The position numbers and the translations under genes are program-made. From the NCBI GenBank assembly GCA_016935095.1, contig JAFGRO010000079.1, positions 1-35,397 on the forward strand: a stretch of DNA of 35,397 nt. The letters run 5' to 3'. The DNA is from Candidatus Woesearchaeota archaeon (lineage in GTDB: Archaea > Nanobdellota > Nanobdellia > Woesearchaeales > GW2011-AR15). The notes beneath the pieces were generated by a model, which searched no databases, was not told where the DNA came from, and saw only the letters and a program-made list of their open reading frames with translations. This document shows, piece by piece, positions 26,854 through 27,141 of the stretch (its first letter is position 1; each line of letters opens with the position of its first letter).

Positions 26854-26922
26854 TTAAATCAAATTAGTTCTTTTTTAATAATTTTCTTTTACTTTTTTCA
26901 TTAATATTTTTTTATTTTAGTA

Positions 26923-27060
26923 ATTGAGAGAGAACACAAGTTGCCCTTGCCGTGATTAAAGACGTCCCTCAATCAGCTCCCTTTGATTATTTTAATCAGA
27001 AGGGGCGCTTGGGGAACTTCTCGTTAAAAATTAGGGAGCAACTATCAAATCTCCCCAAGC
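26923..27060 (+). ncRNA. Candidate structured RNA with three hairpins (family unknown)
   Basis: This G+C-rich island in an otherwise very AT-rich gap folds well. Hairpin A pairs ATTGAG (26923-26928) with CTCAAT (26968-26973) and encloses a small CAAG/CTTG hairpin and a cgTGAttaaaGAcg segment shaped like a kink-loop. Hairpin B pairs TCCCTTTGATTA (26978-26989) with TAATCAGAAGGGG (26993-27005), 12 pairs with one bulged G and a 3-nt loop. Hairpin C pairs GCTTGGGGA (27007-27015) with TCCCCAAGC (27052-27060), 9 pairs, and has an inner CTTCT/GGGAG stem. The strand is a guess; no open frame or protein match runs through it. The downstream gene has its own TATA box after this element, so it is not that gene's leader. 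Confidence 0.5.
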
Positions 27061-27103
27061 CTGAAAATTAAAAAGAGATATCTAATTCCAATTTTTTCCG
27101 CAA

Positions 27104-27141
27104 CTTTTATAAATAATTTTTTAATTCTGTGAATAAGGTGA
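27104..27141 (+). promoter_or_regulatory. TATA box and ribosome-binding site of the Zn-ribbon/EF-1 beta operon
   Basis: cttttataaata (27104-27115) is a clear TATA box, and GGTGA (27137-27141) lies five bases before the ATG at 27147. The ribosome-binding site decides this start over the in-frame GTG at 27129. Confidence 0.6.

Follow-up and report, generated by a model that had tools for sequence, protein, structure and literature searches.

The G+C-rich island downstream of pyrG in the window (the whole 35,397-nt contig analysed here, from a Candidatus Woesearchaeota archaeon) is quite probably one copy of a species-specific, non-coding, non-autonomous mobile-element-like repeat, which spread in trans and whose copies exchanged segments with one another. 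The repeat is dispersed through the host genome, it forms extra DNA at three loci compared with a congener, its copies are mosaics, and neighbouring copies mostly share a common orientation. It probably belongs with the MITE/BOX/REP-like repeats and was spread in trans via hairpin DNA.

A hairpin island with about fifty copies

The sequence-only reading had described a G+C-rich three-hairpin island at 26923-27060, and it is indeed found there, with hairpins of 9, 13 and 9 pairs. At 44%, the G+C content of the island exceeds both that of the left flank (26854-26919), which is 9%, and the 34% of the window as a whole. RNA folding of the region 26900-27090 gave z = -3.8 on the plus strand, where none of 200 shuffles was as good, and z = -3.2 on the minus strand, where one of 200 was. 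The neighbouring genes encode CTP synthase (pyrG), a small HVO_2753-like zinc-ribbon protein and an EF-1 guanine-exchange protein. In agreement with the earlier statement that the island matches no standard RNA family, Rfam 15 returned nothing at the gathering cut-off and nothing sensible up to E = 10. The proposal of a structured RNA therefore stands only in part: the island is really structured and falls in no Rfam family, but it is not an RNA gene of a single locus, for about fifty more copies exist. The suggested TGA...GA kink-loop was not confirmed: its sequence falls within one of the family's most variable stretches, for which several unrelated haplotypes occur among the copies.

A blast search of the host genome with the island returned 41 further matches. 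A covariance model based on 32 of the copies located 55 distinct places (opposite-strand matches to the same place set aside), about 40 of them intact; some of the 55 may be halves of one copy, because about 15 are interrupted by contig ends. About fifty copies are thus spread over the 1.77-Mb genome; their core measures about 160 nt, or about 175-250 nt when the AT-rich arms are counted in. Intact cores have a mean pairwise identity of about 73%, and the closest pair reaches 91%; near-identical recent whole copies are absent, which counts against a mobile element. The copies lie in intergenic gaps, none of those examined falling in a convincing gene, with a spacing that varies from less than 1 kb to tens of kb. 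The way they point does not depend on the flanking genes (11 on the same strand, 10 opposite, 6 between convergent and 4 between divergent genes). Truncated copies were also observed: only the left half is present at C43:2264-2323 and C69:10374-10514, while the copy at C54:2004-2133 lacks its left end and adjoins a stop codon.

Table 1. Parts of the repeat copy in the window and of its immediate surroundings
Feature	Positions	Strand	Basis and remarks
Inserted DNA, approximate extent (core and AT-rich arms)	26854-27100	+	Comparison with congener G002; ends approximate
T-rich left arm, 70% T	26867-26919	+	Composition; T-rich in 32 of 34 copies
Repeat core, conserved	26913-27071	+	Alignments A1 and A2 and covariance model R1; 55 genomic places
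Hairpin I	26923-26973	+	Arms 26923-26931 and 26965-26973; 9 positions, one A.C; variable loop
Inner block 1, family consensus GTCCCTCAATnGCTCCCT	26964-26982	+	96% conserved
Hairpin II	26976-27006	+	13 pairs; tip differs among copies, with paired changes; ~125-nt module instead in a sub-family
Inner block 2, AAGGGGCGCTTGGGGAAC	27000-27017	+	97% conserved
Hairpin III	27007-27060	+	Arms 27007-27015 and 27052-27060; 9 pairs; variable loop
Right-end motif CCCCAAGCCTGAAAA	27053-27067	+	Second occurrence 20-50 nt outward in ~40% of copies
TATA box of the zinc-ribbon/EF-1 beta operon	27105-27116	+	Outside the insert; identical sequence directly after pyrG in G002

Mosaic copies and the test of structure

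Alignment of the copies reveals two 18-nt inner blocks that are 96-97% conserved, compared with 71-78% for the three loop segments (Table 1). The extra right-end motif, CCAAGCCTGAAAA, occurs in about 40% of the copies, mostly 20-50 nt outward, and an extra left-end motif in about 20%. The left TTTTAGTAATTGAGGGA and the right TTTTCAGGCTTGGGGA (minus strand) are alike; no terminal inverted repeats were identified for the repeat, the ends of which are approximate, and this may count against a mobile element. An apparent A-richness of the right arm is not a real bias (0.45 A vs 0.40 T). In one sub-family a module of about 125 nt stands in for the tip of hairpin II, at the start of contig C5 (L070:1-150), at the ends of C14, C64, C69, C71 and C81 and, in a shortened form, at C14:59-268 (L036:59-268). 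The left part of this module is 100% identical in every contig end carrying it and the right part 93-97%, yet the copies that bear it differ in their outer hairpins. The module has two hairpins of its own, and contigs break at modules. Tandem middle modules were not seen among the copies.

Pairwise distances between copies show no correlation from one to another of five adjacent segments (mean r 0.03), whereas simulated families of the same diversity on ordinary trees gave r of 0.55-0.77. A simulated star tree reproduced r of 0, but it also lacked the short-range linkage seen among the real variants, where r2 is 0.111 at distances up to 7 nt against 0.032 past 20 nt and linkage is gone beyond about 12 nt. 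Neither a star-like burst nor tree-like transposon descent thus fits in the simulations. Discrete haplotypes, such as AAAAACATGATG, ATTGTAAAAG and TTAGAATATATATTTAC, recur across many copies in free combination. We infer from these sequence patterns that copies traded segments with one another, probably at the invariant blocks, where gene conversion or template switching may have been at work.

With the hairpins drawn as on the window, 23 doubly changed cells were counted among the copies, against 11.1 in shuffles, of which none of 500 scored as high; this is moderate evidence of covariation, because haplotypes common to related copies can inflate such counts. Nearly all of these cells lie at the tip of hairpin II, and hairpins I and III have almost none. 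Of the compensatory changes in hairpins B and C that would have supported the sequence-only reading, those in B (II) were accordingly seen at its tip, but those in C (III) hardly at all. The ratio of A.C to G.T wobbles is 25:1 in hairpin I, 23:29 in II and 5:7 in III, so that only hairpin I indicates the minus strand, and the case for a one-strand RNA from wobble asymmetry was dropped. A central plus-strand hairpin proposed by RNAalifold consists of invariant or one-side pairs and hence has no covariation support. Hairpin formation is supported for hairpin II, while a strand-fixed RNA is not supported because the wobble pairs indicate conflicting strands. The pattern expected of a stand-alone RNA gene, covariation throughout the structure together with a fixed strand, was not found.

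Empty sites, distribution and orientation

Comparison with congener G002, whose PyrG is 80% identical, shows the locus without the repeat. There pyrG adjoins the zinc-ribbon gene, and the TATA box TTTTATAAATAA begins a few bases past the pyrG stop; the window carries about 249 nt extra, with the TATA box beyond the insert at 27105. The earlier remark that the next gene has its own downstream TATA box, and that the island is not its leader, is borne out: the box does exist, and it is conserved in G002 as well. Besides this locus, three copies were comparable within the half of the G002 genome examined. Two of them also have empty sites in G002, the extra DNA measuring 204 nt (C75) and 176 nt (C65), which makes three of four comparable loci; the fourth differs from G002 in other ways and was uninformative. 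Gain in the host is a simpler reading of these alignments than loss in G002, because the entire repeat family is absent from G002, although loss is formally possible. No target-site duplication was identified, which we counted against a mobile element, and G002 is too diverged to display one.

The family seems to be confined to this species. A blast search of 39 relatives gave no match, and copies were found neither in nine family members, both congeners included, nor in 377 other genomes of the class, nor in viruses or viral contigs, phages or plasmids. Among 287 other genomes of the order, the only match was contig JAFGLI010000009.1 (15167 nt; G193:C16, L105), which carries two repeat copies and is binned as Woesearchaeote Zod_Metabat.396; the same contig was the single one matched when an exact-pattern scan covered one genome from each of 84,980 species. 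The opening 87 nt of this contig coincide perfectly with the end of host contig C14. It encodes a MetRS that shares 76% identity with the G002 enzyme; another, different MetRS is present in the genome to which the contig is assigned (G193), and the host genome yielded no full-length match for the one on the contig. On these sequence grounds the contig appears to be a mis-binned piece of the window's species, and a related family in another genus was rejected. As the sole outside match belongs to that mis-binned contig, the family is limited to one species as far as sampled.

Adjacent copies on one contig are co-oriented in 18 of 20 pairs (one-sided P = 2e-4), one of the 20 lying on the mis-binned contig. 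Two or more copies occur on C13, C14, C18, C24, C35, C39, C43, C62, C65, C67, C69, C79 and C81 as well as on G193:C16. IS200/IS605-type elements are known to target the lagging-strand template (PMC6006769). The GC skew of the copy flanks has no replication polarity, which counts against a replication-coupled mobile element, and because of this we can only infer a link between orientation and replication.

The host genome has four Y1 transposase matches, and none of these genes carries the repeat's ends. At C76 (L023:2440-3170) a Y1 transposase gene of IS200-like type, preceded by hairpins, lies about 345 nt from a repeat copy, and one of those hairpins contains TCAGGCTTTGGG, a 12-nt match to right-end variants. 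That one of the four Y1 matches lies near a copy is not clearly above chance (estimated chance about 8%). A resident Y1 transposase was rejected as the mobiliser, since common ends are lacking and the 12-nt match is too little; naming Y1/HUH transposases in general would be a guess. No parent element was identified when the Y1 genes were screened, and this too counts against a mobile element. Two tandem tyrosine recombinase genes are present on a 3-kb host contig (C61:882-2253; L065, L067). An integron-type array was rejected despite these recombinases, because the copies lie between ordinary genes such as pyrG.

Taken as a mobile-element-like repeat, the family may owe its mobility to a hairpin-recognising protein that works in trans and plausibly acts on single-stranded DNA at replication forks; such action would account for both the hairpins and the polarity. 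In the window, the repeat would have inserted after the pyrG stop codon and ahead of the zinc-ribbon/EF-1 beta operon promoter, whose TATA box was spared, and the T-rich arm may help to terminate the pyrG transcript.

Competing readings and known repeat families

All copies are old and the inner blocks are invariant in every one of them, which could reflect selection in place rather than mobility. The copies might thus be domesticated sites, selected as a chromosome-wide polar signal, with inner blocks that bind a nucleoid, replication or segregation protein. The strong conservation of these blocks relative to the rest of the repeat, the co-orientation of neighbours and the age of all copies would suit such a role; however, both congeners live without copies, which is hard to square with a basic chromosome function, the spacing is uneven, the loops reassort freely, modules are swapped, and the GC skew is without polarity. 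We therefore consider domestication unlikely. Some more weight, still well short of an even chance, goes to a wording that covers a one-direction repeat with loops reassorted around invariant blocks, be it a domesticated, polar signal of the chromosome or a replication-coupled single-stranded DNA element whose copies were shuffled through template switching.

It is more doubtful still that the family consists of about fifty RNA genes, each yielding a structured RNA of about 150 nt. The stable folds and the paired changes in hairpin II would agree with it, but the flanks showed no conserved promoter, the wobble pairs conflict on the strand, hairpins I and III lack compensatory changes, and Rfam has no match. 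We give little credit to selected transcription terminators or insulators between genes: the left arm is T-rich in nearly all copies and the copies are intergenic, yet their direction does not follow the flanking genes, and a scan of this copy found no terminator-like hairpin-plus-T site. The idea that a new structured RNA gene stands alone at this locus, which only local folding would favour, can hardly be maintained given about fifty other copies and the absence of the repeat from the corresponding congener locus; the copy number refutes it. The dispersed mobile-element-like repeat is thus the reading we prefer.

Woesearchaeal archaea belong to the DPANN lineage and have small genomes. The present archaeon has its own BOX/ERIC-like dispersed repeat family, and the literature searched, which covered few subscription papers, gave us no previous description of one for this group or for DPANN archaea. 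With about fifty copies in 1.77 Mb and none in a sister species, the family lends itself to tracing recent genome remodelling. The near-complete decay of linkage over 160 nt and the co-orientation of neighbours open the copying and recombination of such repeats at replication forks to testing. For hairpin islands in such genomes, copy number should be checked before RNA genes are named.

We found no sequence evidence for membership in BOX, ERIC or BIME/REP, and the likenesses concern organisation. BOX elements of Streptococcus pneumoniae have terminal inverted repeats, target duplications and tandem boxB copies (PMC3049150). Compared by description, they share with the archaeal family a dispersed, intergenic hairpin repeat nearly limited to one species or its close kin, and a modular, exchangeable middle between conserved outer parts (boxA-boxB-boxC); in contrast, loop reassortment in the archaeal repeat operates over about 12 nt, and none of its middle modules was seen in tandem. 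ERIC elements, some copies of which carry internal insertions, come from another domain of life, and the archaeal repeat differs from them in its strong mosaicism. The two are alike in being palindromic and intergenic, with some tens of copies of about 130-160 nt (PMC10969869). REP, REPIN and BIME sequences share hairpins, a mosaic organisation and intergenic dispersal with it (PMC3116915, PMC6006769), and a mobiliser of single-stranded DNA, as in the REP/RAYT/Y1 system, would account for the polarity. However, REPs are 21-65 nt long with a tagged tetranucleotide, and the surveyed archaeal Y1 proteins are of the IS200 type only (PMC3116915, PMC6006769). The archaeal core, with about 160 nt and three hairpins, the lack of an identified RAYT partner and Y1 genes without the element's ends place it outside the REPs and REPINs. 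The archaeal MITEs SM1-SM4 of Sulfolobus number 25-44 copies in S. solfataricus P2 (PMC10969869). They resemble the present family in copy number, in being non-coding and in being archaeal. SM1-SM4 copies are near-identical and have terminal repeats in common with resident IS; neither property was found for the repeat described here. Like MITEs in general, it is short, non-coding, multi-copy and intergenic, and it has empty sites at most of the comparable loci.
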